Source: Pirellula sp.
GTDB lineage: Bacteria > Planctomycetota > Planctomycetia > Pirellulales > Pirellulaceae
Reading direction: 5' to 3'
Assembly (NCBI GenBank): GCA_021299695.1
Contig: JAJTEK010000031.1
Span: forward strand, 1-57,097
DNA: 57,097 nt
Shown here: one piece after another, positions 1,564 to 57,005 of the stretch
Position numbering within the stretch: the first letter of the stretch is position 1
How the letters are laid out: every line of letters begins with the position of its first letter
Notes under the pieces: model-generated
Seen by the model: the letters and a program-made list of their open reading frames with translations, nothing else
Database searches by the model: none
Told to the model about the DNA's origin: nothing
Position numbers and translations under genes: made by a program

Positions 1564-3219
1564 TTAGAACTCCTCGCACATCGCGCGGACCGCTGGATTG
1601 CTCACTCGGTAGCTTACGATCTTCACATCGAGATCGCTTCGACGGTACAACTCCGCTGCCCGACGGATCGCATCGAGGATCCAATCCGGATCGTTGCCAA
1701 ACGCGCCACCACCGAGCGATGTTAAGTACACCGATCGGTTTCCAGTCTTCGACGCATTGACAAGCGCTGCTGCAAACGTCGCTTCATAAGCTGCCTGCAA
1801 AATCAATCGCGCAAACCGTTCCCACAATCGGGAAGACAAACCACTATAAGCGACCGGGAGTGCCGAACAATACGCCTGGGTCACCCTGTGCCCACAACCT
1901 TCGAGAGTCACCTGGGTATCCCACTGCACCCCAATCTTCAATTCGCAACGCAGATCGTCGAGCTGCGTCTCGGTCATCTTCTCCAATTTCAAGTTGACTT
2001 CCTTGAGCCCCTCGGCAGTGGGTAACGCATAACCATTTTGCATCCTCCAAAGGCGCTGGTCCGCATTGCCTAGCACCCTGCCGATTCCTGCGAGACAATC
2101 GACCTGCTGTGCTCGCGTCTGGCCGACCTGGCCATCCAAGTCGACCATGTAGTTTCGGTAGATCGTCCCTGCACCGCATGCGACTGCACAAGCAGGTCCT
2201 TGCGTCGGATCCCGCTCGTAGATTCCTACACCTTGCTCCGGCGTGACGTCAGGTGAAATCATCTCGAGCAAATTGAATTGCGAAGCGACTTGGAAAAATG
2301 CTCCCGCGTTCGAAGCATCGGCATGAAGGGCTTTGGCATCGCCGACGATCCCCGAAATCTTCAACTTCTTCTCCTGAGCATCCATCGGTGCGACTTGTTT
2401 GCGTAACGCACCCAGGGATACGATCTGAAGTTGCCCGCATCGGTAACTCGCACCGTTGACTCGGCTCGTCAATCGAGTCCCCTGCACGTCGATGTTTTGG
2501 CGAACTTCATCCGGGGAGCGTTCAGAAAATCCAGTGAGCTTAGTAAACCAATCGTTGCGCAAAACCGCTGTCGAGGGTGGCTTGGTCTTCGATTGACCGC
2601 GCTCTTGAGCCCAGTTCAATACGAATCGCTTTTGGGTGTCGTTCTCGGGTGCTTCGCGCCAAGACCGCTCCGTGTCGGCTTGGCGCAATTCGCTCAGCAC
2701 GTGAAACACACTCTCCTCGGTGGCGTGACCATGCTTCAAGAGCCAGCAACTGACCACCGTACCGGTTCGTCCGATGCCGCCAAAGCAGTGGACATAGACC
2801 GGGCGATTTCTCTGGATCGACGAATCGATCGCATCGAGGATGCTAGTCATTCGCTCATGGGTTGGGATATGTCGATCTTGGATGGGAAATCGAATGCATT
2901 CGATTGGATCCTCGACTCGGCTCGCCAGTTCGCTTAAGACGCCATCGTAGGGGGCAAACAGCATCCCTTGCGGGTTTCTCTCATCTTCCTCCATCAGATT
3001 GATGAACGTCCGGATGCCAGCGTCTAGCAGTCCGGACAATCGCACGATCTGATCTTGCGGATCGGGCTTACCGGCAAAAGCCCCAGCTAGAAACAGCCCC
3101 TCGAGTACCCAATAGGTTCGCGGACAAGGAGTGTTCGATGGAGGAATAGAAAAATGGGCCATGGAAATTGCAAGTCCATCGTGTGATGAGTTTGTTGACA
3201 AAAGATGATTGTACTTCAT
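1564..3219 (-). CDS. Dual-specificity protein phosphatase-like / macro-like domain fusion protein
   Basis: The 551-residue protein appears to join two catalytic modules. Residues about 35-210 carry the cysteine-phosphatase signature HCFGGIGRT at 144-152 (nucleophile Cys145, Arg151), with a general-acid Asp115 in FPIQDRHIP; this fits tyrosine/dual-specificity phosphatases. Residues about 230-551 end in a segment with LGGGAFGNDP and an Asn-Ala-Ser near it, resembling the phosphate-binding loop of macro domains of the TIGR02452/PARG-like kind, so binding or removal of ADP-ribose is possible. The phosphatase call is firm; the macro call is an inference from the motif. No signal peptide is seen, so it is cytoplasmic. 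Met20 (3162) is an alternative start and better matches the family N-terminus. It is the last gene of a minus-strand run, 160 bp after the VWA gene, with a repeat remnant between. Confidence 0.75.
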   Translation of the reverse strand: MKYNHLLSTNSSHDGLAISMAHFSIPPSNTPCPRTYWVLEGLFLAGAFAGKPDPQDQIVRLSGLLDAGIRTFINLMEEDERNPQGMLFAPYDGVLSELASRVEDPIECIRFPIQDRHIPTHERMTSILDAIDSSIQRNRPVYVHCFGGIGRTGTVVSCWLLKHGHATEESVFHVLSELRQADTERSWREAPENDTQKRFVLNWAQERGQSKTKPPSTAVLRNDWFTKLTGFSERSPDEVRQNIDVQGTRLTSRVNGASYRCGQLQIVSLGALRKQVAPMDAQEKKLKISGIVGDAKALHADASNAGAFFQVASQFNLLEMISPDVTPEQGVGIYERDPTQGPACAVACGAGTIYRNYMVDLDGQVGQTRAQQVDCLAGIGRVLGNADQRLWRMQNGYALPTAEGLKEVNLKLEKMTETQLDDLRCELKIGVQWDTQVTLEGCGHRVTQAYCSALPVAYSGLSSRLWERFARLILQAAYEATFAAALVNASKTGNRSVYLTSLGGGAFGNDPDWILDAIRRAAELYRRSDLDVKIVSYRVSNPAVRAMCEEF

Positions 3220-3344
3220 TCGTGGAATTTAGAAGTTCATCCATAAGGAAACCCCGTGAGCCAGCCAGCGCAAGCGGTTGGGCGATTTAAATTAGCCCCC
3301 CAGCACGCTGCGTCTGGGCCCCAGCAGGTTAGTGATCCCGTGAC

Positions 3345-3396
3345 CGATGAAAACGGGGGACTGTCCCGGGCGGGTTTGTTACCGATCAAGAAATGC
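3345..3396. repeat. Degenerate single copy of the 218-bp family junction motif
   Basis: The GAAAACGGGGGACTGTCCC motif followed by GGGTTTGTTACCGAT matches the start of the 218-bp units (GAAAACGCGGGGACTGTCCC then TTTTTGTCACTGAT). It overlaps the 3' end of the VWA gene (stop at 3379), so the repeat may supply part of that gene's last codons. With the array at 710-1520, it brackets the phosphatase-macro gene on both sides. Confidence 0.55.
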
Positions 3397-4563
3397 GTTG
3401 CTGGATAGGTCGCTCGTAAGTTGCCCTCGCAGCGCCTTGTCGAGCAACTCAGGCATTCGACTCGGATTGCAGGCAAAACAGGGGATCCCAATCGATGCCA
3501 ATTTCTTGGCCAGCGATTCGTCGAATATCGGTTTGCCATGATCGGCAAGCGCCAAAAGACAAACGCACTTGACCCCACTACCTACCATCTCTTCCAAACG
3601 TCGAACCAACTGGGCCTGATTCCCACCTTCGTACAAATCGGTGATCATGATGAATAGCGTTTTGCTCGGATCCTCGATGAACTTCTGGCAATAAGCTACC
3701 GATTTGTTGATGTCCGTGCCTCCCCCAAGCTGAACGCCAAAGAGCATGTTGACCGGATCATCCCCGCATTTCTCCGTCAAATCGACCACCTCGGTATCGA
3801 AGGCGATCACATGCGTCTTGAGCGCTGGCAATGAAGCAAAGATGGAACCCATGATCGCCCCATAAACGACCGAGTCGGCCATCGAACCACTCTGGTCCAT
3901 ATCGACGATCACAGTCCAACTGTTGGTGTGCTCTGCTCGCGAAAAAAAATAAACTCGCTCCGGGACAATCGTCCCTAACTTGGGCTGATAATTCTTTAAA
4001 TTCCGTCCGATCGTCCACTTCCAATCGATGCTGCTGGCATTGGGTAAAGGTGTATGCTGGCGTCGGTTGATCGCTCCCATGATCGCTTGACGAATCTGCT
4101 GCTCCAACTGCAGCTTGATATCATCGACAACGGCTTGGACAACCATCCTCGCTGTCTGTTTGGTGCGCTCGGGAATCTGTCCGCTCAACGACATCAAGGT
4201 AGCTACCAACTGAACGTTCGGCTCGACGGACTTCAACGTCTCGGGCTCGAACAGCAATTGCTTGAGCCCTTTTTTCTCGATGGCATCTTGCTGAATGACG
4301 CAAACGATGTCCTCCTTGAAATAGGTGCGGATATCCCCAAGCCATTTTGCAAGTCTCGGGGCTGATCCCCCAAGTCCCGCGCTCCGCTTGCCACCCTGGT
4401 CAAGTGCGTCGGAAGTGTCGTCGTAGATCGCTGCCAAGGCTTGGTCCATCTGAAACTGCTCTGGGGACAGATCGCACCCGGGCGAGCAACTCGCAAGCTG
4501 CTCTTGGGACGAAGCCCCCAAAATCAATCGCCATCGTTTGACCTGTTCGACCGATACGCTCAT
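3379..4563 (-). CDS. VWA domain (MIDAS) protein of the MoxR-associated cassette
   Basis: The protein has 394 residues from ATG 4563; an upstream TTG at 4590 is open, but AAAGGA lies about 9 bases before the ATG. The N-terminal 200 residues are helical and unassigned. The C-terminal half is a von Willebrand A domain with a full metal-ion-dependent adhesion site: Asp223, Ser225 and Ser227 (DMDQSGSM), Thr283 (GGGTD) and Asp309 (ITDLYEGG). VWA partners of MoxR ATPases typically bind Mg2+ and act as adaptors or substrates in assembling or inserting metal complexes. It is the last gene of the cassette, 51 bp after the DUF5682 gene. No signal peptide or membrane segment is present, so it is cytoplasmic. 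Confidence 0.85.
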   Translation of the reverse strand: MSVSVEQVKRWRLILGASSQEQLASCSPGCDLSPEQFQMDQALAAIYDDTSDALDQGGKRSAGLGGSAPRLAKWLGDIRTYFKEDIVCVIQQDAIEKKGLKQLLFEPETLKSVEPNVQLVATLMSLSGQIPERTKQTARMVVQAVVDDIKLQLEQQIRQAIMGAINRRQHTPLPNASSIDWKWTIGRNLKNYQPKLGTIVPERVYFFSRAEHTNSWTVIVDMDQSGSMADSVVYGAIMGSIFASLPALKTHVIAFDTEVVDLTEKCGDDPVNMLFGVQLGGGTDINKSVAYCQKFIEDPSKTLFIMITDLYEGGNQAQLVRRLEEMVGSGVKCVCLLALADHGKPIFDESLAKKLASIGIPCFACNPSRMPELLDKALRGQLTSDLSSNAFLDR

Positions 4564-4614
4564 CTGGAAAATCCTTTGGAAACCAACCAAAGACCGGACA
4601 CCACAGAACGACTT

Positions 4615-6951
4615 CTAAATGTCCCCAAAATCGAATTCATTCAAATCCTCCAACGCTTGTTCTTCTTGCTGCGTCAACGGGCCATCGAGCGACTCCTTGA
4701 CATCCTCGCCATGGACTCCCCAAACCTCGGCTAGATTTTCAGCGATATTCCGCTTCTCGTTAGGACTGAATTCGCCAAAAGCACGCCGCAGAAAAACCAA
4801 GGAACGTTTGAACTGCTCGTCGTCCAACGTCGCTACGTAACGATCGAGCGTATCCCAAAGGACCTGCCTTGCGATCAATCCATATCGATTCCGTTTGGCC
4901 AAACCCTCGAACCAACCGGCGCCCAAGTCGGCTGAAATGCCGGGAGAAAGCCGACGCGAAACCTCACGGACCAGCGCCTCGTTGCCCATCGATCCACGTT
5001 CGAGTAGCAACGCACAAGCATACCCGGATAGGACCGGATTTCGATTGTCTGCGTCGGAAAGCGTTTGCAACTTGCGGGTCCAGAGCGATTCATCGATTCG
5101 GTCGTGAAATTCCAATGAAACTCGATTCATCTGATCGATCGACTGCAGAAGTTCCTTGGCCGCCGTCGCGTCGCAATTGGCCGCTTCGTGCAACGCCAAG
5201 CACCCCTGAACGAACAACGCTTCGATAAGCGGTACCAGAGGCTGTGTATCGAACCGCCTGACATCGCCATAGCGGACCACCTGCATGAGCTCAAAGGCGG
5301 CAGCGGCTATGTGGCCCAGGGCAGAAGTCTCACTGGCCAGATGCTGAAGCTTTTCTCTAGCTTGCTCCATCGACTCCATCAGGTTGCACTTGCAAGCGTC
5401 ACTCACGAGCAACGCGGCCGCATCGATCGTCGGAGCGGCCTCGATGAGTTGTTTGAATCGATACCCACAGGCCAACTCGATTGTTTCCCCAAGCAACACC
5501 GATTCGACGAGCGTGATCTCGCTCTCTGGACTCCATTGCAGATTCCAACGCTCGGCCCATGTCGCCGAGTCTTGCCGAACCGGTACGTGCTCGGCAAACA
5601 GGACCCCAAGAATTCGTAAACGATGGAAAAAACTCGAACGATCCAAATCCAGAAACGCGCTCGCTTGGGTCTTGGCCTGACGATTCTCCCGCAAATCGAT
5701 CGACAACTCCTGCTTGATCGCCGTTCGGTACTTTTCCAACTTCAGACGATCGATGTGCCTGCCGAAATCCTCCTGGATTGAGGTGCGACTAACTCCCTTT
5801 GGCAGTTGCCCAATGGCCGTCCCAACATCAACCCGCATCAACGATTCTGCGATGTTGCTACGTTCCCCATGGCCCAACAACGCGATGGCAGCATCATGCA
5901 AATCCTCCAGCGTCGGATGATACCCCTCCTTAAGCGCAGAGAGCGTCTGCGCTAGTCGGACCCCTTCGATCACTTCAGCCGTTGAGCGATAAGTGCCTAA
6001 CTCGCGATAACTTCTGGCGACCGAACTGAGATAGCGTACGCCCAGTGCGTCCAAAGTATCGCTCTGGAGCGTCTCCCACAAAAGCTCAAAATAGGCCGGT
6101 GCAAGGTTCCCGGCACCGTAACCGGATTGCGTAGATAACCGGAAATACGAGTAGGGCATCAGCGTAAGTTTGCTCGCGCGGCGAGGCAAACTCTCGAACT
6201 CCTTGTCGCTCATGGCCAAATGCGATCCATTGAGCACCGGGGCATGATAAGCACCCACAATGGCGACGATCTTCTCCGGACGTATCCCCCGTGCCAATGC
6301 CCGCTCGATTTGACGACGCATGAACGCCTCTCGGACCAGATTCTCGGCGCGCCGCCGAAGCGGTTCGCTATCCAAAGCTCGAAGCGAAGTACCAAGCTCG
6401 TTGGCCGCCAACCGATAGGCATCCTCGTTGAGGTTGTGCTCGAAGCGTCGCTCCCAATAAGCGTCATAACTTGTCTCTCCTGAAATCTCAGCCAAACGAT
6501 CGTAAACCGTAACGTGACACGACTCGCTATCCGGTAGCGTGCCGTCTGCGTTCATATCGTCAGCAAATTCCTCCGGCAATTCCTGAGCCGTGCGCCCGGC
6601 AAACTCCATCTCGAGCTCCTGCAATCCCAAAAAGGCATCCGAAGGTAGATCGATGAACTCAAGCGGCTTGCGGTTCTCGTGGGCCCATAGAACAGCCTGA
6701 TACTCCGGACTGTAAATCGCCAACGGATAAACCAAAGTCCGTACGGGCAACGAATCGGTGTAAGCCAAAATGGCCACCGGTGGCTTGGTCCCTTGGTTGA
6801 CCAAGTCCCCGGTCAGTTCGACCGCATCATGCAAACCTTCAACCATGACCAAATCGGGCTCAAGGCGATCCAAGTACCGTCGCAAATGCCAAGCGCCGCT
6901 CGGGGAAAGATGCCGAACCCCGAATACGTTGATCTCCCAATGAGACGTCAT
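4615..6951 (-). CDS. DUF5682 family protein
   Basis: The protein is 778 residues long from ATG 6951, which overlaps the stop of the AAA gene as ATGA and so is preferred to the longer open frame from 7035. The N-terminus has the family signature FGVRHLSPSGAWHL (10-23) followed by LEPDLVMVEGLHDA, and further on a VAIVGAYHAPVL segment. This arrangement (G-x-x-H..., then V-x-E-G, then V-G-A-x-H) resembles TraB/TIKI/EreA-like proteins, so a hydrolase fold is possible, but that is my inference. The C-terminal 450 residues are helical. The family is regularly found beside MoxR and VWA genes; its biochemical role is unknown to me. Confidence 0.8.
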   Translation of the reverse strand: MTSHWEINVFGVRHLSPSGAWHLRRYLDRLEPDLVMVEGLHDAVELTGDLVNQGTKPPVAILAYTDSLPVRTLVYPLAIYSPEYQAVLWAHENRKPLEFIDLPSDAFLGLQELEMEFAGRTAQELPEEFADDMNADGTLPDSESCHVTVYDRLAEISGETSYDAYWERRFEHNLNEDAYRLAANELGTSLRALDSEPLRRRAENLVREAFMRRQIERALARGIRPEKIVAIVGAYHAPVLNGSHLAMSDKEFESLPRRASKLTLMPYSYFRLSTQSGYGAGNLAPAYFELLWETLQSDTLDALGVRYLSSVARSYRELGTYRSTAEVIEGVRLAQTLSALKEGYHPTLEDLHDAAIALLGHGERSNIAESLMRVDVGTAIGQLPKGVSRTSIQEDFGRHIDRLKLEKYRTAIKQELSIDLRENRQAKTQASAFLDLDRSSFFHRLRILGVLFAEHVPVRQDSATWAERWNLQWSPESEITLVESVLLGETIELACGYRFKQLIEAAPTIDAAALLVSDACKCNLMESMEQAREKLQHLASETSALGHIAAAAFELMQVVRYGDVRRFDTQPLVPLIEALFVQGCLALHEAANCDATAAKELLQSIDQMNRVSLEFHDRIDESLWTRKLQTLSDADNRNPVLSGYACALLLERGSMGNEALVREVSRRLSPGISADLGAGWFEGLAKRNRYGLIARQVLWDTLDRYVATLDDEQFKRSLVFLRRAFGEFSPNEKRNIAENLAEVWGVHGEDVKESLDGPLTQQEEQALEDLNEFDFGDI

Positions 6952-8093
6952 GACATCTGGTCCGAGCAAGCAGCAAAGAGAGACCGCCACTCGGCTCCTC
7001 GCTTCTTGAGAACATTCGCAAGATACTCTTGCCAAACGATCTTGTCTTTTTCCTCGTCCTTGATGACAGCTCCCTGAATGGAGGATGCCAGGTCTTCCGG
7101 GGAAACCTTGCCGTCGCCAAAGTTACCAGCAAGCGACATGCTTGCTGCAAGAACCGAAATCGCTTCGGCGGTCGAAAGCACCCCCGACGGAGACTTGAGC
7201 TTGTTTTTGCCGTCGAGCGTTTGGCCAGTGCGCAATTCGCGGAAGATGGTGACGACTTTTTCAATCGCCTCATCGGCCGGGACCGGGGCCTGGAGTTCCA
7301 GATTCTTGGCAAGCTCATGGACCCGCCTGCGGACAATGTCCATTTCGGTTTCTAAGGTGGCTGGCGATGGCAGTACGACGATGTTGAATCGACGCTTGAG
7401 GGCCGCCGACATGTCATTGACGCCGCGGTCTCTAGTATTGGCAGTGGCGATTACCGAAAAGCCTTTCTGCGCTGGTATCTCCATCTGTAGTTCTGGAATT
7501 GAAATCCGTTTTTCCGACAGCAAAGAGATCATCGCGTCTTGGACCTCGGATGCACACCGTGTGATCTCCTCAAAGCGAGCGATCGATCCCCCCTCCATCG
7601 CTCGCATGATGGGACTTCGAATCAGCGAGGTATTCGACGGACCTTGGGCGATAAGCAAGGCGTAGTTCCAGGTGTATCGGATCTGCTCTTCGGTCGTGCC
7701 GGCCGTACCCTGAACCACCTTGGTCGAATCGCGATTGATCGCCGCTGCCAAATGCTCCGACAACCAAGACTTGGCCGTCCCTGGTTCTCCGATCAACAAA
7801 AGGGATCGGTCGGTCAGAAGCGTCGAAATCGCGATCTCTACCAATCGCTTGTAACCCACGTACTTGGGGGTGATTGTCGTCCCTCCGACCGTACCTCCCG
7901 TGATATAGGTCAGCACCGCCCGAGGAGACAACTGCCAACCCGGTGGACGCTCATAGGAATCGGCCTGCGCAAGAGCATCGAGCTCATGGGCATAGAACTC
8001 CTCGGCTGGTGCTCGCAACACATTCCCCTGAGAGCTTGGACCACTCTCTTTTGTTGTCGTTGCGTTGAGGTCATCCTGTTTTTTCTTGGCCAT
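6948..8093 (-). CDS. MoxR-type AAA+ ATPase
   Basis: The protein has 381 residues. Walker A is GEPGTAKS at 102-109. The Walker B/acidic region is RFEEITRC (173-180), preceded by the MoxR-typical GGSIARFEE. Sensor 1 is Asn219 in IATANTRDRG, followed by the ALKRRF arginine-finger segment at 231-236. MoxR ATPases use ATP hydrolysis to remodel partner proteins, typically one carrying a VWA domain; that partner is encoded two genes downstream. The first 55 residues are polar and probably disordered. Its stop codon overlaps the DUF5682 start (ATGA at 6948-6951), so the two are translationally coupled. It lies 42 bp after the HEAT-like gene. Confidence 0.92.
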   Translation of the reverse strand: MAKKKQDDLNATTTKESGPSSQGNVLRAPAEEFYAHELDALAQADSYERPPGWQLSPRAVLTYITGGTVGGTTITPKYVGYKRLVEIAISTLLTDRSLLLIGEPGTAKSWLSEHLAAAINRDSTKVVQGTAGTTEEQIRYTWNYALLIAQGPSNTSLIRSPIMRAMEGGSIARFEEITRCASEVQDAMISLLSEKRISIPELQMEIPAQKGFSVIATANTRDRGVNDMSAALKRRFNIVVLPSPATLETEMDIVRRRVHELAKNLELQAPVPADEAIEKVVTIFRELRTGQTLDGKNKLKSPSGVLSTAEAISVLAASMSLAGNFGDGKVSPEDLASSIQGAVIKDEEKDKIVWQEYLANVLKKRGAEWRSLFAACSDQMS

Positions 8094-8135
8094 CTTTGCA
8101 ATTTCTAAATGAGAGAATGGGGTTCAATGGAAAGT

Positions 8136-9905
8136 CTATTTCTTGGTGCGCTCGCGGATTTCGCTGATCGCATCGATCAGCCGATCGGTTGCACTCTGTG
8201 CGAGCTTCGCGTCGCCAGCTAGCGTCTCCAAGGCGGGTAATGCATCGGCATTCAGACGTGCCGCGATCAAGCACCATGTGTAGGACTCATACGCGCCCTT
8301 GGTTTTCAAGGAATCGGTAATCTTTTCAATCACGAACTCGTTGGTCTTAGGATGGCTGATGTCAATCATCGCCGAAGCCACAGCCGATTCGAAATTGCTC
8401 ATCGCTTTGGGATCTGCAAGCTTGGTGTCAATGTATTTGACCAATCCAGCATGATTGGGCTGTGCAAGTGCCACGGCGAGCTCCAAGTCGTCGGTCGCGA
8501 TCGCATCATTCAACCAAGCGACATCCATGGGCTTAAGTGCCTTTTTGCGGATCCATCGCCAATGGTATTCGTGGCCACCAAACAATCCCTCTCGCACAAT
8601 CGCATTCCTGCGGTGTTCGGGCGTGTTCTTTTTCGCCGAACGGTTGATGTACGGCGAGAACGTTTGGTAAAAATCCTTCGGGGGCAGCACCTCCATCCCC
8701 TGGACAAGAATCACATGAAAGCATTCCACAGGCAAATGATCTCGCTGCTGGATCAAGTAATCGATGCTCTCGCTATCGGAGGCTAGGGCCTGAACGACGG
8801 ATTCTACGATATCGAGTCCTCCAGGCGTGGATTTGATCTTCCGCAATTCGTTGGACTTTTCAATGCATTGGCGCAAGAATTGCCTGGGCTCAGGTTTCAT
8901 CGGATTGCGGAGAATAGAAATCAGTTGGAGGATCCGTCCGACCTGATCGCCCTGTTCTTTCTTATCGCTCTTCGATGGGATTTCGACGAGGAGTTTTTTA
9001 GCCCGATCCAAAGCGGCATCGACAAGCTCTAGCGGTTTGCTGCCGCTTGCCGCTCGTGCGACAAGCTCCAAATCCTTGCCATCGATCCCCTTGATCAATA
9101 TCGCCAGGGACTCCTCGTTGGCGATCTTGCACAAGGCGTGGTAGGCGGCTTGGCGAACATCCTTGGCCGAAGCCTTCGATTGCTCGATCAAGTAAGAAAA
9201 ATCCTCTGCTTGGCCACCCAAACATTCTATGGCTGCGACCTTGACCTCAGGGGAACCACCCCCAAGCGATTCCTTGACCGTCTGGCGCGCGAAGACTGGA
9301 TCGATCGTGTGCATCAGCTTCAGTCGCCGCGCATGTCCACCCTTTCCCTTGATATCAAAAGTCGACTTCAAATCCGCTAGGATCGCCTTGCCATACGTAG
9401 GTAGGACTCTTTCTGCGATCAGATCCCCGATTTCGCTATAGGAGTCGTCGATTGCCAGGAGAGCAGGTCGGACCAAACGCAGATCTGCGAACAGACCATG
9501 ATCGATCGCACTTGTGATCGCCACGAGCCGCCCGGATCCTGTCGACGCCAACGCCTCGATCAGTGGCTTGAGCATCCGAGCGCTGATCTGATTGCGAGGG
9601 GAAGGAACCGATGAGGATTGGACGCCTTCGAGCTTGCCGTCTACTCCAGTTGCGCCTTGGGTGTAGAGAATCGAGCAAACCAGGGAGCTGAGGTTCAAAA
9701 GGCTCGATGCAGAGCTCTGTTCGTCGGAGTTGACTAGGTCCTCGACACTCTCGGCCACTTTGGAAAAGATAGGGGCTTTGGCTCCCGCCTTCTTCAGTGG
9801 TTCGATCAACTTCTTGAGCCGAAAATCACCGGGCGCAACCGAACTGCCGGCGATCGAGAGGCGTCGAACTTCGCTGTAGACTTCGTTGAGAATCGCAATG
9901 CTCAT
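8136..9905 (-). CDS. HEAT-like helical repeat protein of the MoxR/SWIM cassette
   Basis: The 589-residue protein starts at ATG 9905, chosen because a perfect AAGGAG lies 5 bases upstream; a TTG at 9926 is open but has no such site. It is almost wholly helical, with repeated patterns such as VKVAAIECLGG and VRQAAYHALCKIA (about 225-275) typical of HEAT/armadillo repeats. There are no catalytic motifs, no signal peptide and no membrane segment. It probably is a scaffold. In comparable cassettes this place is held by DUF5691-type proteins; whether this one belongs to that family cannot be decided here. It follows the SWIM gene by 26 bp. Confidence 0.75.
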   Translation of the reverse strand: MSIAILNEVYSEVRRLSIAGSSVAPGDFRLKKLIEPLKKAGAKAPIFSKVAESVEDLVNSDEQSSASSLLNLSSLVCSILYTQGATGVDGKLEGVQSSSVPSPRNQISARMLKPLIEALASTGSGRLVAITSAIDHGLFADLRLVRPALLAIDDSYSEIGDLIAERVLPTYGKAILADLKSTFDIKGKGGHARRLKLMHTIDPVFARQTVKESLGGGSPEVKVAAIECLGGQAEDFSYLIEQSKASAKDVRQAAYHALCKIANEESLAILIKGIDGKDLELVARAASGSKPLELVDAALDRAKKLLVEIPSKSDKKEQGDQVGRILQLISILRNPMKPEPRQFLRQCIEKSNELRKIKSTPGGLDIVESVVQALASDSESIDYLIQQRDHLPVECFHVILVQGMEVLPPKDFYQTFSPYINRSAKKNTPEHRRNAIVREGLFGGHEYHWRWIRKKALKPMDVAWLNDAIATDDLELAVALAQPNHAGLVKYIDTKLADPKAMSNFESAVASAMIDISHPKTNEFVIEKITDSLKTKGAYESYTWCLIAARLNADALPALETLAGDAKLAQSATDRLIDAISEIRERTKK

Positions 9906-9910
9906 GTTCT

Positions 9911-9916
9911 CTCCTT
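9911..9916 (-). promoter_or_regulatory. Shine-Dalgarno site of the HEAT-like gene
   Basis: The minus strand reads AAGGAGAGAACATG. AAGGAG is a full match to the anti-Shine-Dalgarno sequence at a 5-base spacing. It fixes the start at 9905 rather than the upstream in-frame TTG. Few genes in this window have such a strong site. Confidence 0.75.
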
Positions 9917-9931
9917 GGAGGATCAAGCGAA

Positions 9932-11479
9932 TTAGAGGGTCAAGCGGATAACTTCACATTCCGTGACGATGCTCAAGGGTTTTACCTCTAGTCGGCATCG
10001 GTCCAGGTCATGTCGAAAGCGACCCACGAGGACTTGATCCCGAATCGCTTCGGCAGGCACCAATCGGAGAAGTTCGACACTTGAGGGTTCTTCGGCCATC
10101 CCTCGATCGTTGAGCGAAAATCGATTGCCGGCTTTGTCTTCGATGACATACACTCCTTCGATGATCCCTAGGGTCTTGAATTGCAGCAGGCAAACCGGTT
10201 GCTTTTCCGATAGGGGTCCCTTGAGATTGTTCTTGACTGATTTAGCCAATGCAGCGAAATCACTCGAAGACGCTTTGCGAACTTTTTCGAAATCCGCCTT
10301 GGTCGTCGGACGAGGAATCATTTCTTCCCATCGACAACGGGCGTTGAAGTCCCCTGGATAGATGCAAAGCATCGGGACTTGGGCGATCTGAAAGAAGCTA
10401 TCCTCAGACTTGATGAATTTCGCTGCCTTGTAGGGGCGATAGGTTTTGGTAGTGAGGACTTTTCCTGTGGCAAGTTCAACCCAGATCCCCGTGTCAACAA
10501 ATTCACGACGCGCAAGATCGTCGTGGGAATTGAAAGCCAATTGCATCAACTCAGCATTTTCCTGCGTCAACCCGGCTTCTTTCAACTCGCTCAATTGCCA
10601 AGCGTGTCCCAACCAAGCTGCAATGGGCGATTCGATTTCGGGTTTGAGTTCTGGGTCCTCCAGCCGCTTCTCCAGATACGCTCGACCTTGTTTGACCAAC
10701 GCATTGAGTCGTCCGAGTTGATCGAGGGCATCGCTGTAGATCGCCTCGCGGACCGAGCTAGGCGCCTTGTCATCGAACTTTCCGCTACCGTCGGAAAACA
10801 GAGATGTGTAGGCGTGCAGCGCATTTTGAGCCCCAGGCAGATAAGCGTCTCCGAGCTGCTTGGCCCGACTTTCGATGGTGCTTGCGAGTTTCGCATTCAT
10901 GTTGCCAATGCCGATGCGGGCCAATTCGATGGTGAGCTCCTCGAGTAGGTTGATCCCCTCTAGCTGCATCTTGATCTTCTTGGCCAACGCGGCTTTATTG
11001 ACCTGCTTTGGGCCTGCAGGGGCTTCTTTATGCTTCTCGGCCCGAGCAACAACCTTTTCACGCTTGCTCTGTAGGTCCTCAGGGACCTCCGCTGTCTTAA
11101 AGGAAGAAGCATTTTGAACGTACGCGTACATCAAACCGATCGAGTGCTTGCATGGAAATTGGCGACTGGGACAACTGCAGCGGTAAGTCGGAGCACCAGG
11201 GCGAATAAAGTCACACGAGCAGCGATAAGGATCCTTGCCACTCCCCTGGCACTCACCGAATAGGATCGAACTATCCCCAGAAATATTCAACTGGAGATAT
11301 TTTTTCTTAAGGACCAGACTTCGTCCATTTTTTGCTGCTTCCGCATTCGGGGCAGCCGAATCAACAAAAGACTCATCGATAGAAATCACAACCGTTACCT
11401 CATGCAAATCTCGGGCGTCATCGAAGGCCGTGCGGATTGACCCTAACCGATCACTTGCCATGCGAAAAGACCTTTGCAT
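9932..11479 (-). CDS. SWIM zinc-finger protein
   Basis: The 515-residue protein carries a canonical SWIM motif, C-x-C-x6-C-x-H, at Cys101, Cys103, Cys110 and His112 (CSCPSRQFPCKH), which binds zinc and usually mediates nucleic-acid or protein contacts. A second Cys-Ser-Cys pair lies just before it at about 87-89. Residues 120-180 are lysine-rich and polar, and the C-terminal 330 residues have no recognised domain. It is the first gene of the minus-strand cassette, so the promoter should lie upstream of 11479. Met1 (11479) is used; Met7 (11461) is an alternative with AAAGG upstream. No export signal is present. Confidence 0.85.
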   Translation of the reverse strand: MQRSFRMASDRLGSIRTAFDDARDLHEVTVVISIDESFVDSAAPNAEAAKNGRSLVLKKKYLQLNISGDSSILFGECQGSGKDPYRCSCDFIRPGAPTYRCSCPSRQFPCKHSIGLMYAYVQNASSFKTAEVPEDLQSKREKVVARAEKHKEAPAGPKQVNKAALAKKIKMQLEGINLLEELTIELARIGIGNMNAKLASTIESRAKQLGDAYLPGAQNALHAYTSLFSDGSGKFDDKAPSSVREAIYSDALDQLGRLNALVKQGRAYLEKRLEDPELKPEIESPIAAWLGHAWQLSELKEAGLTQENAELMQLAFNSHDDLARREFVDTGIWVELATGKVLTTKTYRPYKAAKFIKSEDSFFQIAQVPMLCIYPGDFNARCRWEEMIPRPTTKADFEKVRKASSSDFAALAKSVKNNLKGPLSEKQPVCLLQFKTLGIIEGVYVIEDKAGNRFSLNDRGMAEEPSSVELLRLVPAEAIRDQVLVGRFRHDLDRCRLEVKPLSIVTECEVIRLTL

Positions 11480-20138: not shown

Positions 20139-20729
20139 ATGAACCAGGATCAAGGCTCTATCACGCAGTGGGTAAAGCTATTGCAAGCCGGAGAGCGTAA
20201 TGCTGCAAGTCAGATCTGGAATCGACTCTATCCAAAGCTGCTTAAAACCGCCTCGAGGCACTTTCGGAGAAACTCAGATCCTGCAACCAGTGCCGAGGAC
20301 ATCGTTCAAAGTAGCTTCCGGAATGTCTTTCAGGGAGTCATCGGCGGCAAGCATCCTCGTCTAGCGAACCGTGATGAGCTTTGGAATCTTCTTTTCGTCT
20401 CGGCAATCAATCGTATCCGGAGTCACTACCGCGCGCTGAACGCTCAGAAGCGGCCCGTCTATCATCGTGAGCCACTGGAAGCTCTCGACGAATCTCTATT
20501 GGCCGAACTCATGAACCCAGAGGCTCTGGTCGATCTCTCGGACTTCGTGGAATATCTCTTTAGGCGTCTGGACCAAGAGGATCCCTCGGGCGAACTTAGG
20601 CGAATCGCATCAATGCATTTAGACGGTCATTCGTCAGCTTGGATTGCAAAAACGTTGCGACAAAGAAAATACAAAGTGCTACAGAAAATCCATTGGATCC
20701 GGATCCTCTGGGAGGAGTGTGTCTATTGA
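20139..20729 (+). CDS. ECF-type RNA polymerase sigma factor
   Basis: The protein has 196 residues from ATG 20139; the frame is open 17 codons further up, but those codons are not sigma-like. Region 2 (about 10-95) includes DPATSAEDIVQSSFRNVF, matching the -10 recognition helix of planctomycete ECF factors. Region 4 (about 150-190) has LRRIASMHLDGHSSAWIAKTL followed by LQKIHWIRILWEE, a helix-turn-helix for the -35 element. No anti-sigma factor is adjacent. Instead the stop overlaps the Ser/Thr kinase start (TGATG), and ECF factors so placed are thought to be controlled by kinase phosphorylation. Confidence 0.88.
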   Translation: MNQDQGSITQWVKLLQAGERNAASQIWNRLYPKLLKTASRHFRRNSDPATSAEDIVQSSFRNVFQGVIGGKHPRLANRDELWNLLFVSAINRIRSHYRALNAQKRPVYHREPLEALDESLLAELMNPEALVDLSDFVEYLFRRLDQEDPSGELRRIASMHLDGHSSAWIAKTLRQRKYKVLQKIHWIRILWEECVY

Positions 20730-23695
20730 TGAGCATGAACACGGATTCGGAGGGACTCCCAGATCGCTACCCAAGTGCCTCAGTGACTTCGACACTGTGG
20801 CGAAACGTGATGGATTTGGCTTCGGATTACGAAAGTCATCTGCGAAGCGGTTTGAATCCGACGCCCGAGAAGTTCGCATCGGACTATCCCAACATCCCCT
20901 CGGAGATACTCATCCCGGAATTGCAAAGAGTTCAAGACGAGTACCTTCTGGATCACAATCATCCCGATTCGGCTGAGAATTTAAGGTACACCGAATTCGA
21001 ACTGCTTCGTTCTGGAGGCATGGGAGAGATCTATCGGGGTATCGATAACGAGTGCCAACGCCCTGTCGCGATCAAAAAAATACGACGGGAATTCCAGGAC
21101 GATTACGAGGTCCGGGCACGCTTCCATGCCGAGGCGGAATTGACCGCATCGCTGGAGCATCCTGGAATCATTCCCATCTATGGACAAGGGACAGATGCAC
21201 AAGGAAGAGACTTCTATGCAATGCGTCTGATCGACGGGGATAGAACAGGAGACTTTAGCAAGTCGATCCGGGACTTCCATCAAAGGTCGGATGGTACATC
21301 CGATGCGCATCGCTCGATCGATCAAGTCGCAGGAGATCTAAGAGACCTTCTGAGGCGACTGGTCGACATCGCCGACACGGTATCCTACGCGCATAGCCGA
21401 GGTGTTGTCCATCGCGACTTAAAACCCTCGAACATTCTCATTGGACCTTATGGTGAAACGCTAATCGCCGACTGGGGATTGGCACGAAGGATCGAGTCGA
21501 CCTCCACGGAATGCTCTGATCGGGAATCCTATTCTGCGCGTAAGCCCCTCGATTCGGAGGGGATCGCCGGGGAGAACACGAGCGCATCGGTAACCGATGG
21601 AGTCGGTACCCCAGGGTTTAGAGCACCCGAGTCAATCCAAGGTGCGCGCAGCGCATCGCTGCGATTGGCCGATGTCTTTTCGCTCGGTGCGATCCTCCAT
21701 TGCATAGTGACCAACCAAGTGCCTGAGCAAGACCCTCGCGTTGAACCGGAGCTTCCCAAAATCCCCGGCATCCTCTCGTTATTCGCTGTGGCCCAAAAAG
21801 CCATGGCGGTCGATGCATCCGATCGCTATGCCTCGGTGGTGGCTTTTCGCGACGATCTGTTGAATTGGATCGCAGGGGAACCCGTCAGCGCTAGAGCCGA
21901 AACATGGACCGAACGTGCCTTGCGGTGGCCAAGTCGCAATCGGACGCTTGCGACGGGATTGGCAACGGCAATCGCAATCGCCTTTTTAGGCGGTGGAGTG
22001 TTCCTATGGTACCAAGGCAAACAGAAGCTGATTGTCGAGCAGCAAGCCAAACAGCTTCGCATCGCACTCGATGATTCAGCGAATCTATTGAAGATAACCC
22101 AGCAAGCTAAACTCGCTGCAGAACGTGCTGAGCAAAACGCCGAACAGCGCAGGATCGAAGCGGTTCAAAACCGTCAGGTAGCCGAGAGAAGAGAATCTCT
22201 GGCCTTTGAAGGTCTCTTGAAATTCCAGGACCTTCTGGTGACCGATCATGAGGTTTTTCAATCGCCCAAACTTGCCACCATTCACAGCAAGCTTACAGGT
22301 CAATCCAAGGATATTTTCGACAAGATTCTCATGGATCTCGAACAAACGATGCCTCCGAGTCCGAACTCGGTGGATCGACTGAGCCATATCGTACACCGTA
22401 TCTCATCGTTGGAGATCCGAGTTGGGAAACCCGATCAAGCCGTGCTGCTTGTCGACCGCGCATGCCAGTGGATGCAGCGTTGCTTGAAAACTACGGACCC
22501 TTTGAGTTCAACCGCTGAGCTGCTTCATTTGCGAATCGGCGAACTGAAGTCTCTCGAGGGAAATTGCTATATACTCCAGAGAAAATTCCAAGAATCGAAG
22601 GTCCCATTCGAGCAATCGATTCGTGAGCTTGAACCTCTGATCGATAAAACGGGTCTCTCAGATTCCGATATCGTCATGGGACGTTTAGCGTTGGCCAAGT
22701 CCCTCTCTGGGTTATCGATGCACCATGCCTATCATGGCAGCCTCGACGAAGCGAAAAGACTTCAAGTCCTGGCGATCGAACGGATCTGCTCAGAAAAATC
22801 GACCTCTTACGATTTTGCTATGGCCCAAGCCCAAATCCATGCGAACATGTCGATTCTCTACGAGCGCTCCAAAGAACCCGATTTGGCCTTGGCTCAACTC
22901 GAGACGGCTTCCATGGCCCTAGACGACGCTGCAGGATTGATTTGGAGCCAACCGGCCGGTTTTTCGACCGATAATGCCACGGTGATTCCTACTACGGAAT
23001 TCGCTTCTTTTCTTTCCTTGTTCGGGCACGAACGCGCCCGAATCCTCATCGAACTCCATAGGATTCCCTCGGCAATAGAACTACTCGAAGTCTTGCTTCG
23101 CAAAGAAACCGAATCGGTTTCGCAATCGACCTCCAATGCAGATCTCCTGAAGTTTTACCAAAAGACCGCGACAAACCTTCAATTCCTTTTGGCCAACCAT
23201 GGGAATAACACGCAAGCCGCCGAGGTGTCTAAACAATGGGTTACGCTCGCCGAGAGACTCTTGCAAGCCGAATCCCCCAGCGAAGCGCGAATGCTGTTTC
23301 TTATCTCAGCACATCACACAACAGGACACATGCACGACATGCATCAACGCAGTGAGCTTGCTCTCGAGAGCTACACAAAAGCGACCGAAGCTTGCCTGCT
23401 TGCTTACCGAAACCAAATCAGGACCCCAACGATTATCTATCAGTTTTTCGAACTGCAGATGCACCTGATGAATTCAAAATCGCAGAGCTCGCCATTACCC
23501 GAACTGCTCGAACACTCCAGACAGGCCACCGAAGCGGTCGAGGAACTACTCAGACTCCCCGTTGTACCCACCCAAGATCTCATGTTGGCATCGGGCCAGT
23601 TCCAGAATGGACTCAACTCACTTCGCAATGCGGGGCACACAGACGCCGCCGAGCGATGGCAAGAGGAACTGAAGTCCAAAAACCTGCTAAAATGA
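20729..23695 (+). CDS. Receptor-like Ser/Thr protein kinase with extracytoplasmic helical-repeat domain
   Basis: The protein has 988 residues from ATG 20729, which shares its A with the ECF stop (TGATG). The kinase domain spans about 88-385: glycine loop RSGGMGEIYRG, Lys116 (VAIKK), catalytic HRDLKPSN (228-235, Asp230), metal-binding ADWG (247-250, DWG in place of DFG, common in planctomycete kinases) and GTPGFRAPE. A single membrane segment lies at 406-428. Next come a coiled coil (about 430-520, Gln/Glu/Arg rich) and a 460-residue helical TPR-like region facing the periplasm, probably a sensor. It likely phosphorylates the coupled sigma factor; that link is inferred from gene order. It ends in an ATGA overlap with the hydrolase gene. 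Confidence 0.93.
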   Translation: MSMNTDSEGLPDRYPSASVTSTLWRNVMDLASDYESHLRSGLNPTPEKFASDYPNIPSEILIPELQRVQDEYLLDHNHPDSAENLRYTEFELLRSGGMGEIYRGIDNECQRPVAIKKIRREFQDDYEVRARFHAEAELTASLEHPGIIPIYGQGTDAQGRDFYAMRLIDGDRTGDFSKSIRDFHQRSDGTSDAHRSIDQVAGDLRDLLRRLVDIADTVSYAHSRGVVHRDLKPSNILIGPYGETLIADWGLARRIESTSTECSDRESYSARKPLDSEGIAGENTSASVTDGVGTPGFRAPESIQGARSASLRLADVFSLGAILHCIVTNQVPEQDPRVEPELPKIPGILSLFAVAQKAMAVDASDRYASVVAFRDDLLNWIAGEPVSARAETWTERALRWPSRNRTLATGLATAIAIAFLGGGVFLWYQGKQKLIVEQQAKQLRIALDDSANLLKITQQAKLAAERAEQNAEQRRIEAVQNRQVAERRESLAFEGLLKFQDLLVTDHEVFQSPKLATIHSKLTGQSKDIFDKILMDLEQTMPPSPNSVDRLSHIVHRISSLEIRVGKPDQAVLLVDRACQWMQRCLKTTDPLSSTAELLHLRIGELKSLEGNCYILQRKFQESKVPFEQSIRELEPLIDKTGLSDSDIVMGRLALAKSLSGLSMHHAYHGSLDEAKRLQVLAIERICSEKSTSYDFAMAQAQIHANMSILYERSKEPDLALAQLETASMALDDAAGLIWSQPAGFSTDNATVIPTTEFASFLSLFGHERARILIELHRIPSAIELLEVLLRKETESVSQSTSNADLLKFYQKTATNLQFLLANHGNNTQAAEVSKQWVTLAERLLQAESPSEARMLFLISAHHTTGHMHDMHQRSELALESYTKATEACLLAYRNQIRTPTIIYQFFELQMHLMNSKSQSSPLPELLEHSRQATEAVEELLRLPVVPTQDLMLASGQFQNGLNSLRNAGHTDAAERWQEELKSKNLLK

Positions 23696-24978
23696 ACGTC
23701 ATGTTCCTAAGTCGTACCACTTTGCATGACCCGATCTGGTGGATTCAAACCATGCGTCATTTCGCAATCTGCGCACTAGTGTTTCTCCTAGCAGGGCCAC
23801 TCTTGGCCCAAGACCAGACTACAAGCGATCCGAAAATCGAGAGCAAGCGTCAGGACCTTTTCACTGCATCTGTCGATTACTCCAAACGGTACAGCGGGCA
23901 CGCTGTCTTGATCCAGCACCGAGGAAAACTTGTCTTTGAACGCTACGACGATTGGGGCCAAGAAACGCCCCACATGCTCGCTAGCGGCACGAAAAGCTTT
24001 TCTGGCGTTCTTGCGATGTTCGCTGTCCAAGATAGATTGCTCACCTTGGACGAACGGGTTTGCGAAACCATCACCGAATGGAAAGAAGACCCCAAAAAAA
24101 GCAAGATCACGATCCGGCACCTCCTGAGTCTATCCTCAGGTCTTGAGCCGGCCGATGCGGCCTTTCCCATTCGCAACGCAGGATTGCTCCCGAAAAACTC
24201 CATCCTTTCGCAACGCCAACAAAGGATCGCTCGCCAAGACCAATCCCAAGGATTGAGCAAGCTTGCGACGGGAAACTGGTTTAAGGATGCCGTCGAGGTT
24301 CCCATGAAATACCAACCTGGCGAAAATTTCGATTATGGACCAAGTCACTTCTATGCATTCGGTGAATTGCTCAACCGCAAACTGCAATCGCAATCGGCCA
24401 TCCAAGCGACGAGTTTTGAAGCATATGCGAAGTTGCGAATTTTCGACCCAATCGGAATCCAAATCGGACGGTGGGGCAAAGACTCCGCAGGGAATGTCAA
24501 TATTCCAGGAGGTCTGATGCTCACGGCTCGCAACTGGGCTAAATTCGGACAGTTCGTTCTACAGCAAGGCTCCATCGAACAAGCAGACGGATCGACTAAG
24601 GAGTTGCTCAGCAAAGACCTCTTGAAGCAATGCTTTGTACCTTCATCCGCCAATCCAAAATACGGTCTTACCTGGTGGCTCAACAGTGTCGACGAGCAAG
24701 CCGACTCGGGCCGAAATCCTGGGCCCGCACAAGGAAACTTCAGGGATCGTATTCGCCAGCAGGCTCTCAGCCGCGAAGCGGATGTAGGAACCGACTCCAA
24801 CCAAGAACCGATGGAGGTCTACATGGCTGCAGGACTTGGCAAGCAGCGATTGTTCATCCTTCCGAAATACGATTTGGTGGTGGTTCGATTCGCGGAACCA
24901 AGCCAGCAAGGAAACCGATTCAACAACGGTGAGTTCCTCAAGCCGATCGTGCAGGCTTTCGATTCGGAAAAACCATGA
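23692..24978 (+). CDS. Secreted serine hydrolase of the class C beta-lactamase family
   Basis: The protein has 428 residues from ATG 23692 (ATGA overlap with the kinase stop). ATG 23752 is an alternative that puts the signal peptide (MRHFAICALVFLLAGPLLAQ) at the very start. Ser98-x-x-Lys101 in ASGTKSF is the nucleophile motif. The usual YxN motif appears as YGP at 215-217, and YGLTWWLN lies near the C-terminal third. Members are esterases, D-amino peptidases or penicillin-binding-like enzymes; no substrate can be assigned. It is held in the ECF-kinase operon by overlaps on both sides, so it is a likely output or target of that signalling unit. Confidence 0.88.
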   Translation: MNVMFLSRTTLHDPIWWIQTMRHFAICALVFLLAGPLLAQDQTTSDPKIESKRQDLFTASVDYSKRYSGHAVLIQHRGKLVFERYDDWGQETPHMLASGTKSFSGVLAMFAVQDRLLTLDERVCETITEWKEDPKKSKITIRHLLSLSSGLEPADAAFPIRNAGLLPKNSILSQRQQRIARQDQSQGLSKLATGNWFKDAVEVPMKYQPGENFDYGPSHFYAFGELLNRKLQSQSAIQATSFEAYAKLRIFDPIGIQIGRWGKDSAGNVNIPGGLMLTARNWAKFGQFVLQQGSIEQADGSTKELLSKDLLKQCFVPSSANPKYGLTWWLNSVDEQADSGRNPGPAQGNFRDRIRQQALSREADVGTDSNQEPMEVYMAAGLGKQRLFILPKYDLVVVRFAEPSQQGNRFNNGEFLKPIVQAFDSEKP

Positions 24979-27900: not shown

Positions 27901-28004
27901 ACGCATCGGAACTCGATCAGATGAGAGTCTATGTCGACCAACATGGATTGGCTGCGCTGTGTCGCATCGTTTTTAATTCCAATGAATTTCTGTTCGTTCC
28001 TTGA
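24975..28004 (+). CDS. PSCyt1-DUF1549-DUF1553 (PSD1) secreted cytochrome-like protein
   Basis: The protein has 1009 residues. A signal peptide (about 1-28) precedes a PSCyt1 domain with the haem-binding motif CFACH (Cys52, Cys55, His56). Then comes DUF1549/PSCyt2 (about 165-370; RRVYFDLVGIPPTP, YGQRWARHWLD, CARCHAHKFDPI), a beta-sandwich-like insert (about 430-620), and DUF1553/PSD1 (about 720-980; RSVVNRTWHYHFGQGL, NRRSIYRYVWR). This architecture is almost restricted to planctomycetes and relatives, and its biochemical role is unsettled. It starts inside the stop of the serine hydrolase (ATGA) and is followed 56 bp later by its standard partner, the DUF1501 protein. Confidence 0.95.
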   Translation: MSRNSLSLTMLLFLWLCPLLALSAVSLAQESPQETDQAFFHRQVEPLLKKHCFACHSHNAGQMESGLALDWRSGWETGGSRGPAILPGNPDASLLIRAVEHSDADLKMPDEKLSADEIQTLKDWVQRGAFDDRQVRPEATDPMDWWSLRPLIAPQIPDLPSGGLLNGPANPIDAFVGAKLQASGLTRSALASPEERIRRVYFDLVGIPPTPEQTRAFLESPTESAYEQLVDKLLDSPGYGQRWARHWLDTIHFADSHGYEHDVGRDHAWPYRDYVIQALNDDIPWDRFIREQLAVDVFEPDATDRIPALGFLGAGTFDLSTYSTGPVTFDYLDRDDMLTQTMAAFVSTTANCARCHAHKFDPISQEDYYALQAVFAGVLKGNIRYDADAADATKRREILQLKKGALERDLKVLESEFARLRIEPLARSQATVATWRTLDLESFVSLEGATLTQQVDRSYLASGTAPDTDTYVLSARVPLQRITALRLDVLPHASLPMHGPGRCQNGNLHLSEVSVSVFHPDLPAGKSIPIARSSADFNQAGWGIQRAIDGDPKTAWGIHPEVAKPHHAVFEFQEPIELAQGSTLSVTLKQLHGGSHLIGAFRIALTDADSGQAIALPQEIEQILGLPESDRTDEQKLTLAAYLGNLAADAELAKLPEQATVYAVGTSVSIPSGNGNHQPGSIAAPKKVHLLDRGDISKPRGEVPPGSLSALGHLPSRFEDRSELTESARRAALADWIAHRDNVLTWRSVVNRTWHYHFGQGLCDTPSDLGRMGGEPSHPELIDWLAVWFRDRAQGSLKQLHRLIVTSQVYQQSAEDRPEASSIDATNRLLWRQNRLRLDADAFRDYVLAISGRLDTGHGGPAVQHFTQQPGPQSTPKLDYSAYDWSAANSNRRSIYRYVWRGIPDPLMASLDFPDLGLLAPSRTFSASPLQSLALLNNPFVLVHSQATAERLARETPELDAQIETLWQLAYQRRPDASELDQMRVYVDQHGLAALCRIVFNSNEFLFVP

Positions 28005-28060
28005 CCCGCTGGACTAACCGGTATCGCTTATGAAACTCTCTCCCATGAATGCGAGCGACC

Positions 28061-56711: not shown

Positions 56712-57005
56712 AAAGAGCACTAGCTGAGAATCAATCCAACAAAAGGTCTATCAACACCATGGGTCGCAGAAGCCCCGCAACTTACCTATAGGTTACTCCC
56801 TATCTTGAAGCTATCCGAGCCAAGACACACCTGTATTTCTACTTAGCTCCCACATCCCCCCTTCGCACCGGGAGAGATTCTTGCATTAAATCCCCTTTAA
56901 GGGACGAATCGACGTCCTGAGGCTTGAAATGGGCGCCGGAAACCACGAAGATATCGGTCCGGAAAGAATTTATGCAATCGCCAAGTCCTCTCCTCCTCTC
57001 CTCTC
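56712..57005. other. Intergenic region upstream of divergent kinase and lipoprotein genes
   Basis: These 294 bases hold no convincing gene. They include CCTATAGGTTACTCCCTATCTTG (56789 onward, split here for clarity as CCTATAGG then TTACTCCC) and a pyrimidine run CTCTCCTCCTCTCCTCTC just before the ATG at 57006. No terminator or clear promoter box can be assigned. Confidence 0.35.

Follow-up and report, generated by a model that had tools for sequence, protein, structure and literature searches.

A conserved five-gene cassette in Pirellula that joins a MoxR-VWA pair to a DUF5682 protein with a predicted TraB/Tiki-superfamily domain

Five adjacent genes in a 57,097-nucleotide stretch of Pirellula sp. 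DNA (GenBank assembly GCA_021299695.1, contig JAJTEK010000031.1; the whole stretch is referred to below as the window) encode a SWIM zinc-finger protein, a HEAT-repeat protein, a MoxR-type AAA+ ATPase, a DUF5682 protein and a VWA protein. We find that they constitute a real and widespread conserved unit, a conclusion well supported by comparison with other loci, and sequence similarity firmly indicates that the cassette is in part the yehLMPQ set of Escherichia coli. The N-terminal domain of the DUF5682 protein appears to be a TraB/Tiki-superfamily domain, an assignment well supported by sequence and weakly by fold comparison. New here is the placement of DUF5682 in a superfamily, together with candidate residues of its active site and a partner to which it can be fused; an opaque operon that nearly all of the E. 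coli genomes examined possess thereby becomes accessible to experimental testing. We propose, at about even chances, that the five genes would encode one YehL-type machine, powered by ATP, that supplies a predicted Tiki-like hydrolase with substrates or acts as its gate.

Six open reading frames (ORFs) lie within positions 1564-11479 of the window, all on the minus strand and with the coordinates given in a preliminary description of this DNA made from its letters alone. That description had recognized five co-directional genes with short gaps or overlaps, combining SWIM, HEAT, MoxR AAA+, DUF5682 and VWA proteins, and the ORFs together with Pfam searches confirm it. These five genes span 3379-11479 and are separated by a few tens of bases or, in one case, joined by an ATGA overlap. 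Together with the two parts of the DUF5682 protein they are as follows.

9932-11479, minus strand: SWIM zinc-finger protein (Pfam SWIM, E = 5e-4, 20.1 bits at a cut-off of 19.6)
8136-9926, minus strand: HEAT-repeat helical protein (Pfam HEAT_2, 2.8e-8)
6948-8093, minus strand: MoxR AAA+ ATPase of the YehL type, Walker A motif GEPGTAKS (Pfam AAA_5, 2e-39)
4615-6951 (ORF 4615-7035), minus strand: DUF5682 protein, 778 amino acids (PF18934, 3e-144)
6058-6951, minus strand: DUF5682 residues 1-298, predicted TraB/Tiki-superfamily domain (hhalign, Foldseek, invariant residues)
4615-6057, minus strand: DUF5682 residues 299-778, mostly helical and solenoid-like in the AlphaFold2 model
3379-4590, minus strand: VWA protein of the CoxE type with a DxSxS metal ion-dependent adhesion site (MIDAS) motif (PF05762 VWA_CoxE, 2.5e-46)

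Judging from the starts of its homologues, the SWIM protein probably begins at the GTG at 11389 (485 amino acids; 515 in the full ORF), and the corrected starts of the HEAT and VWA genes are likely the ATG codons at 9905 and 4563. The start of the DUF5682 gene was corrected from the sequence to the ATG at 6951, which overlaps the MoxR stop codon as ATGA. A scan for promoters and terminators found promoter-like sites to be rarer than in shuffled sequences, and terminator-like sites to lie within one standard deviation of the shuffle mean.

Conservation of the cassette and its kinship with yehLMPQ

We compared 97 loci, namely the window, 16 wide neighborhoods from genomes of the same phylum and 80 loci from named records, calling neighboring genes from all ORFs of at least 60 amino acids. 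Within the phylum sample of 149 genomes, 19 have a DUF5682 match and 18 have one above the cut-off (the window's own genome included in both counts); genome G089, in which the gene falls into three pieces on two contigs, and genome G067, whose match is under the cut-off, were left out. The 80 named-record loci are the best of at least 587 confirmed ones, ranked by similarity, and are thus biased towards window-like copies and close relatives and form no census. They cover Planctomycetota, Paenibacillus, Cohnella, Lachnospiraceae, Bacteroidota, Polyangium, Wohlfahrtiimonas and others; the closest named relative is a metagenome-assembled genome from Planctomycetota (L041), with a DUF5682 protein 94% identical to that of the window.

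The order SWIM-HEAT-MoxR-DUF5682-VWA, which the preliminary description had proposed to seek elsewhere, recurs exactly and on a single strand in 61 of the 97 loci. A same-strand MoxR gene is found near DUF5682 in 92 of the 97 loci and a same-strand VWA gene in 93, and the view of the cassette as a remodelling machine built on a MoxR-VWA pair, with partner genes close by, is accordingly supported. Because the same order recurs across loci of several phyla, the grouping of these genes goes far beyond chance. In other lineages the position of the HEAT gene is occupied by DUF5691: the HEAT profile finds nothing in six SWIM-MoxR-DUF5682-VWA loci, and in five of these (L025-L027, L029 and L030) a DUF5691 profile matches the gene in this slot. 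The HEAT and DUF5691 profiles give a probability of 42 and an E value of 2.6e-4 when aligned with hhalign. Annotated plasmid records show the same alternation, with the order SWIM-DUF5691-AAA-(small gene)-DUF5682-VWA in Deinococcus, SWIM-DUF5691-AAA-DUF5682 with no VWA gene annotated in Methylosinus, DUF5691-AAA-(small gene)-DUF5682-VWA with SWIM fused to DUF5691 in Hymenobacter, and DUF5691-AAA-DUF5682-VWA without an annotated SWIM gene in Rhizobium.

The motifs expected of the individual proteins are likewise conserved. The Walker A sequence GEPGTAKS occurs in 85 of 92 MoxR sequences, the DxSxS motif in 88 of 90 VWA sequences and the CxCnCxH signature in 72 of 74 SWIM sequences, the window included each time. 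The SWIM finger (CxC...CxH) consists of C101, C103, C110 and H112 in the numbering of the 515-residue ORF, all invariant in an alignment of 13 sequences (A6). In the VWA protein, VWA_CoxE covers residues 163-381 of 403, and no other Pfam family was found, so that no second or effector domain is detected there. The Walker B segment of the window's MoxR protein (6948-8093) reads RFEEITRC; the usual residue is D where this protein has E, and RFEE forms occur in 44 of 92 MoxR sequences by a single pattern that is uninformative for most of the others.

The cassette proteins were compared with eight E. coli yeh proteins. The MoxR protein has YehL as its best match (42% identity over 361 amino acids, 2.7e-82), the VWA protein matches YehP (34% over 378 amino acids, 1e-78) and the DUF5682 protein matches YehM (25% over 516 amino acids, 5e-19). 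The SWIM protein gives no blastp match to YehQ, and profile alignment with hhalign gives a weak one (probability 31, E = 5e-4) across the finger and beyond. The gene order in E. coli K-12 MG1655 is yehF, yehH (a pseudogene), yehI, yehK, yehL, yehM, yehP, yehQ, and a yehQ-type gene also follows the VWA gene in three planctomycete loci (L038, L039 and L040). A profile for yehI (DUF4132 type) finds this gene in E. coli and in two of these loci alone, L038 and L040, where it lies upstream of the cassette; there is no match in the window, and we take this gene as an E. coli-type feature that does not define the cassette. A relationship between the HEAT protein and DUF4132 was considered as well and is unsupported (hhalign probability 1.4). 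Of the 5,426 complete genomes of E. coli, 5,284 contain a DNA match to yehM, which in 5,166 extends across 80% or more of the gene; chromosomes carry 5,289 of the matched places and plasmids 2. An IS5-family element splits yehM in one of these genomes (NZ_CP137737.1, 1867916-1871259).

MoxR proteins fall into seven subfamilies, YehL among them (PMC3893208). Among the matches listed in the literature searched we found no role for a YehL-type MoxR protein or for yehLMPQ, and the term DUF5682 is absent from that literature. The statement in the preliminary description that the full cassette has no assigned role thus holds for that literature, but the description did not recognize in the set the yehLMP genes of E. 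coli with a SWIM gene added, and in calling the activity of the DUF5682 protein unknown it missed the likeness to TraB and Tiki proteins that profile comparison indicates.

The N-terminal domain of DUF5682 proteins

An alignment of 40 DUF5682 N-terminal domains (A4) was compared by hhalign with an alignment of four TraB proteins (A11), giving a probability of 89 and an E value of 2.3e-6 over 195 columns. This alignment runs from end to end (DUF5682 residues 5-242) and pairs both GxxH-type histidines, E38, D101 and R207. Against a second alignment, of seven TraB/GumN proteins (A5), the probability was 83 and the E value 8.5e-6 over 41 columns, while three unrelated alignments used as controls gave E values of 0.068, 0.25 and 0.21. 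When the same 40 N-termini were scanned singly against Pfam, TraB_PrgY_gumN was matched by 10 of them (best 0.0029) and ChaN, a haem-binding uptake family of the Tiki superfamily, by 7 (best 7.8e-5); every other family except DUF5682 was matched by one member each.

The pattern of conservation points in the same direction. H14, E38, D101, R207 and H236 are invariant in all 98 DUF5682 sequences compared, E. coli YehM included, some of which are only 22-24% identical to that of the window. In a solved TIKI endopeptidase two histidines, two glutamates and one arginine are essential, and the arginine stands 29 residues before the second histidine (PMC6254334); the spacing between R207 and H236 is also 29.

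An AlphaFold2 model of residues 1-298 has a predicted local distance difference test (pLDDT) value of 89.5 and a predicted template modelling (pTM) score of 0.88. Its three highest-ranking Foldseek matches are chains of Tetrahymena complex IV (probability 0.85-0.66), which are also the only significant matches in the Protein Data Bank (PDB) of the A5 TraB profile (5e-6) and are named 'TraB family protein'. The full-length model (pLDDT 85.8, pTM 0.75) has weak matches among its best 50 in the PDB, mostly to helical-repeat proteins, and searches of PDB sequences with DUF5682 profiles returned nothing, or nothing relevant.

A proposed machine and its alternatives

Fused genes indicate which of the proteins may be in contact. 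DUF5682 and VWA are encoded in a single ORF in three loci (L088, residues 41-801 and 815-1170; L037, 29-721 and 799-1128; L031, 85-831 and 912-1268), and SWIM and DUF5691 in a single ORF on the Hymenobacter plasmid. These fusions lead us to predict two contacts within a complex, one between DUF5682 and VWA and the other between SWIM and the helical protein. MoxR-vWA pairs are said to act through capture of a peptide by the vWA protein and conformational change driven by MoxR (PMC7159879). In the machine that we propose, MoxR would be the AAA+ motor and the VWA protein, via its MIDAS site, would capture the substrate or couple the motor to it. The DUF5682 protein would be a third core part, a predicted hydrolase of Tiki/TraB fold (probably a peptidase or an amidase/esterase) borne by a large helical arm and attached directly to the VWA protein. 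Clients could be recognized or positioned by a second subassembly, made of the SWIM protein and the HEAT (or DUF5691) protein. By hydrolysing ATP, MoxR would then remodel the client or open the DUF5682 protein, whereupon the Tiki site would cut or modify the client. Complex formation, hydrolytic activity, the choice of protein as substrate and its cleavage, the role of the machine and the order of these events are all predictions of this model.

In six Lachnospiraceae loci, ClpS and ClpA genes lie directly after the VWA gene on the same strand (L074, 13461-16782; L077, 4552-6772; L084; L091, 8995-12280; L105; L116). Five of the six have Aat after ClpS-ClpA, and in L077 the contig ends at that point; the ClpS, ClpA and Aat families were verified by Pfam in L091 only. 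We regard this adjacency as a hint of a link to protein quality control.

A number of observations weigh against the proposed machine or against the domain assignment on which it depends. The ClpS-ClpA adjacency comes from one clade, whose DUF5682 proteins are 82-95% identical. In Capnocytophaga (L069) the DUF5682 gene has no core neighbor within about 10 kb, and the VWA gene is found elsewhere with no MoxR gene in the surrounding 4.1 kb; two short contigs (L092 and L095) show DUF5682 alone, and neither a SWIM nor a HEAT gene could be detected in the examined sequence of two Rhodopirellula loci (L044 and L045). With a more diverse alignment of 15 full-length DUF5682 sequences (A1), the comparison with A5 is weaker (probability 45, E = 2.2e-4, 46 columns), and the window's own protein matches TraB at 13.3 bits, where the curated cut-off is 26.8. 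The three top Foldseek matches are essentially one protein and score poorly (E 0.018-0.067, TM-score 0.32-0.34 by query, root-mean-square deviation above 10 A); the Tiki folds 2G5G and 3B55, named in PMC6254334, are not among the best 50 of the 181 matches, and the full-length model has no PDB match below an E value of 1e-3. Finally, the glutamate of the ExH element in the 2His/2Glu motif is replaced in DUF5682, where position 12 is I or V, and a TIKI-fold protein lacking the 2His/2Glu motif is reported to have shown no peptidase activity (PMC6254334). Most of the TraB proteins used in our comparison read GTAH and likewise lack this glutamate, and for this reason the ExH glutamate does not define the superfamily.

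It is quite possible that the cassette encodes purely a MoxR-VWA chaperone or activase that matures or reactivates a complex in the manner of RavA-ViaA or CoxD-CoxE, with the TraB-like domain serving as a non-catalytic binding or structural module. Several MoxR-VWA pairs are reported to work in this way (PMC3893208, PMC7159879), the VWA protein of the cassette is of the CoxE type, and the TraB-family protein of ciliate complex IV, which is the closest solved fold, serves that respiratory complex as an accessory subunit (PMC10060162). This explanation has to account for the five residues of DUF5682 that do not vary among the 98 sequences; their invariance across such divergent proteins is more conservation than a scaffold needs. 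An alternative in which the machine loads a metal or haem cofactor into an enzyme seems improbable to us. It would draw on the haem-binding ChaN-type relatives detected in the Pfam scan, on the DUF4132 (MolR-type) or yehI-type neighbors in E. coli, L038 and L040, and on the precedent of CoxD-CoxE (PMC7159879), but those three are the only matches of the yehI profile, and among the 30 largest clusters of flanking genes, which were not annotated by family search, no recurrent cofactor enzyme was noticed. The connection of MolR with molybdate is a 1990 report cited in PMC8533742, whose authors saw molybdate genes unchanged when DUF4132 and WGR genes rose.

Less probable still is the suggestion, made in the preliminary description, of a conflict or defense system, in which the phosphatase-macro gene that follows the cassette would be a processing arm. 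Related MoxR-vWA ternary systems have been proposed as conflict systems (PMC7159879), and a relative of DUF5682 is present in 36 of 72,556 plasmid records, some of them chromosome-sized, one copy (in Methylosinus) being flanked on both sides by insertion-sequence genes. Against such a role, the near-universal yehM gene of E. coli is overwhelmingly chromosomal, as counted above, six peptide patterns found no DUF5682 relative in viral contigs, and only 1 of 50,697 phage records has one. In PADLOC the MoxR protein alone is matched, and weakly (best E 0.007), Pfam detects a single domain in the VWA protein, and the phosphatase-macro gene is beside none of the 76 other testable cassettes; the conflict-system interpretation is thus unsupported. 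The single phage record is a 14-kb 'Bacteriophage sp.' sequence (MT835988.1, 10533-12755) encoding a DUF5682 protein at 47.5% identity, and is possibly mislabelled bacterial DNA.

The sixth gene and other neighbors

The gene downstream of the cassette starts 159 bases past the VWA stop codon, and the promoter and terminator scan found no minus-strand terminator-like site between the two.

1564-3219, minus strand: dual-specificity phosphatase (DSP; HCFGGIGR) with a macro-like domain, neighbor outside the cassette (PF22784, 5e-18; PF00782, 1.1e-10)

Its HCX5R loop, present as HCFGGIGR, and its family matches bear out the DSP half of the earlier DSP-macro assignment, and the macro-like half is indicated by weak matches. 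The window's own C-terminal half has no Pfam match; the Macro family matches one of eight relatives (E 0.16), and a profile of the C-terminal family gives nine weak PDB matches (E 0.028-1.6), to about four proteins, all nine being PARG, protein-ADP-ribose hydrolase, AF1521 or PARP14 chains. AF1521 and the matched PARP14 chains we take to be macro domains, and a macro-like nature of this half is plausible, though not proven, from these similarities. The C-terminal family (window 1564-2574; L121, L122, L130-L133 and L135) shares the motifs FQVASQFN and GGGxFGN besides its faint similarity to macro and PARG proteins; it has no Pfam match above cut-off in the members scanned and occurs in planctomycete ORFs of 336-771 amino acids.

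The sixth gene is a fusion of two proteins found apart in the phylum. Genome G114 has the C-terminal part alone (57% identity), and the phosphatase part lies about 160 kb from the cassette in G121, a genome from the window's own family. Of the other loci, 76 have a complete VWA gene with at least 2 kb of sequence after it, and the sixth gene is present in none of them; the sequence of the closest relative, L041, ends 516 bases after the VWA gene, too soon for this comparison. The patterns used for viral contigs did not find the DSP-macro protein there either. We therefore reject this gene as a member of the cassette and place it outside the proposed machine. With the sixth gene outside the cassette, the idea that the system processes ADP-ribose or phosphate marks loses its basis in the cassette and is unsupported.

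Genes for the RNA ligase RtcB stand beside or within the cassette in L065 (4317-5555 and 13779-15251), L050 (13861-15474) and L113 (3499-4695), and a further one is found about 6 kb away on the other strand in L034. This at first suggested a functional link, but it concerns only 3 of 96 loci. The remainder of the window carries genes of the PSCyt1/PSCyt2/DUF1501 and sulfatase families, which are hallmarks of planctomycetes. At 20639-29485, protein kinase, beta-lactamase-fold, PSCyt/PSD1 and DUF1501 genes stand in a row, an arrangement common in planctomycetes, and a histidine kinase bearing an ABC_sub_bind region is encoded at 54825-56720.

Comparison with known systems

The cassette shares with RavA-ViaA and CoxD-CoxE the pairing of a MoxR protein with a VWA protein, and its VWA domain is of the CoxE type, but to our knowledge neither of those systems has a DUF5682, SWIM or HEAT/DUF5691 partner. 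In E. coli, yehL, yehM and yehP are orthologues of the MoxR, DUF5682 and VWA genes in identical order and strand, and a SWIM gene belongs to the cluster as well; that gene follows the VWA gene, whereas it is the first in the window's cassette, and the place of the HEAT gene is taken by upstream DUF4132 genes, to which the HEAT gene shows no detectable relation. Among proteins of the TIKI/TraB/PrgY/ChaN superfamily, DUF5682 aligns with the TraB proteins and conserves two histidines, a glutamate, an aspartate and an arginine, but it differs in its long helical C-terminal arm, its AAA+ and VWA partners and the absence of the ExH glutamate.

The MoxR-vWA ternary systems described in PMC7159879 likewise combine a MoxR motor, a vWA partner and a third conserved protein. 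The third protein there is VMAP, iSTAND, FtsH or a beta-propeller, whereas here it is the Tiki-like DUF5682, and the window's vWA protein has no variable effector domain. Pfam searches found none of these four families above cut-off in the five proteins (bpMoxR reached 24.2 bits, with a cut-off of 27), and the main text of PMC7159879 makes no mention of YehL, SWIM or TraB. We tentatively raise the possibility, doubtful as it stands, that the cassette represents a fifth kind of MoxR-vWA system, extending from planctomycetes to E. coli, in which an AAA+ motor would drive an ATP-dependent protease of the Tiki family. This would be an unrecognized machine for regulated proteolysis or processing beside ClpAP, ClpXP, Lon and FtsH, adjoining ClpS-ClpA-Aat N-degron genes in one clade, and an ATP-driven protease of the Tiki type, if it exists, would constitute a new class of energy-dependent proteolysis.

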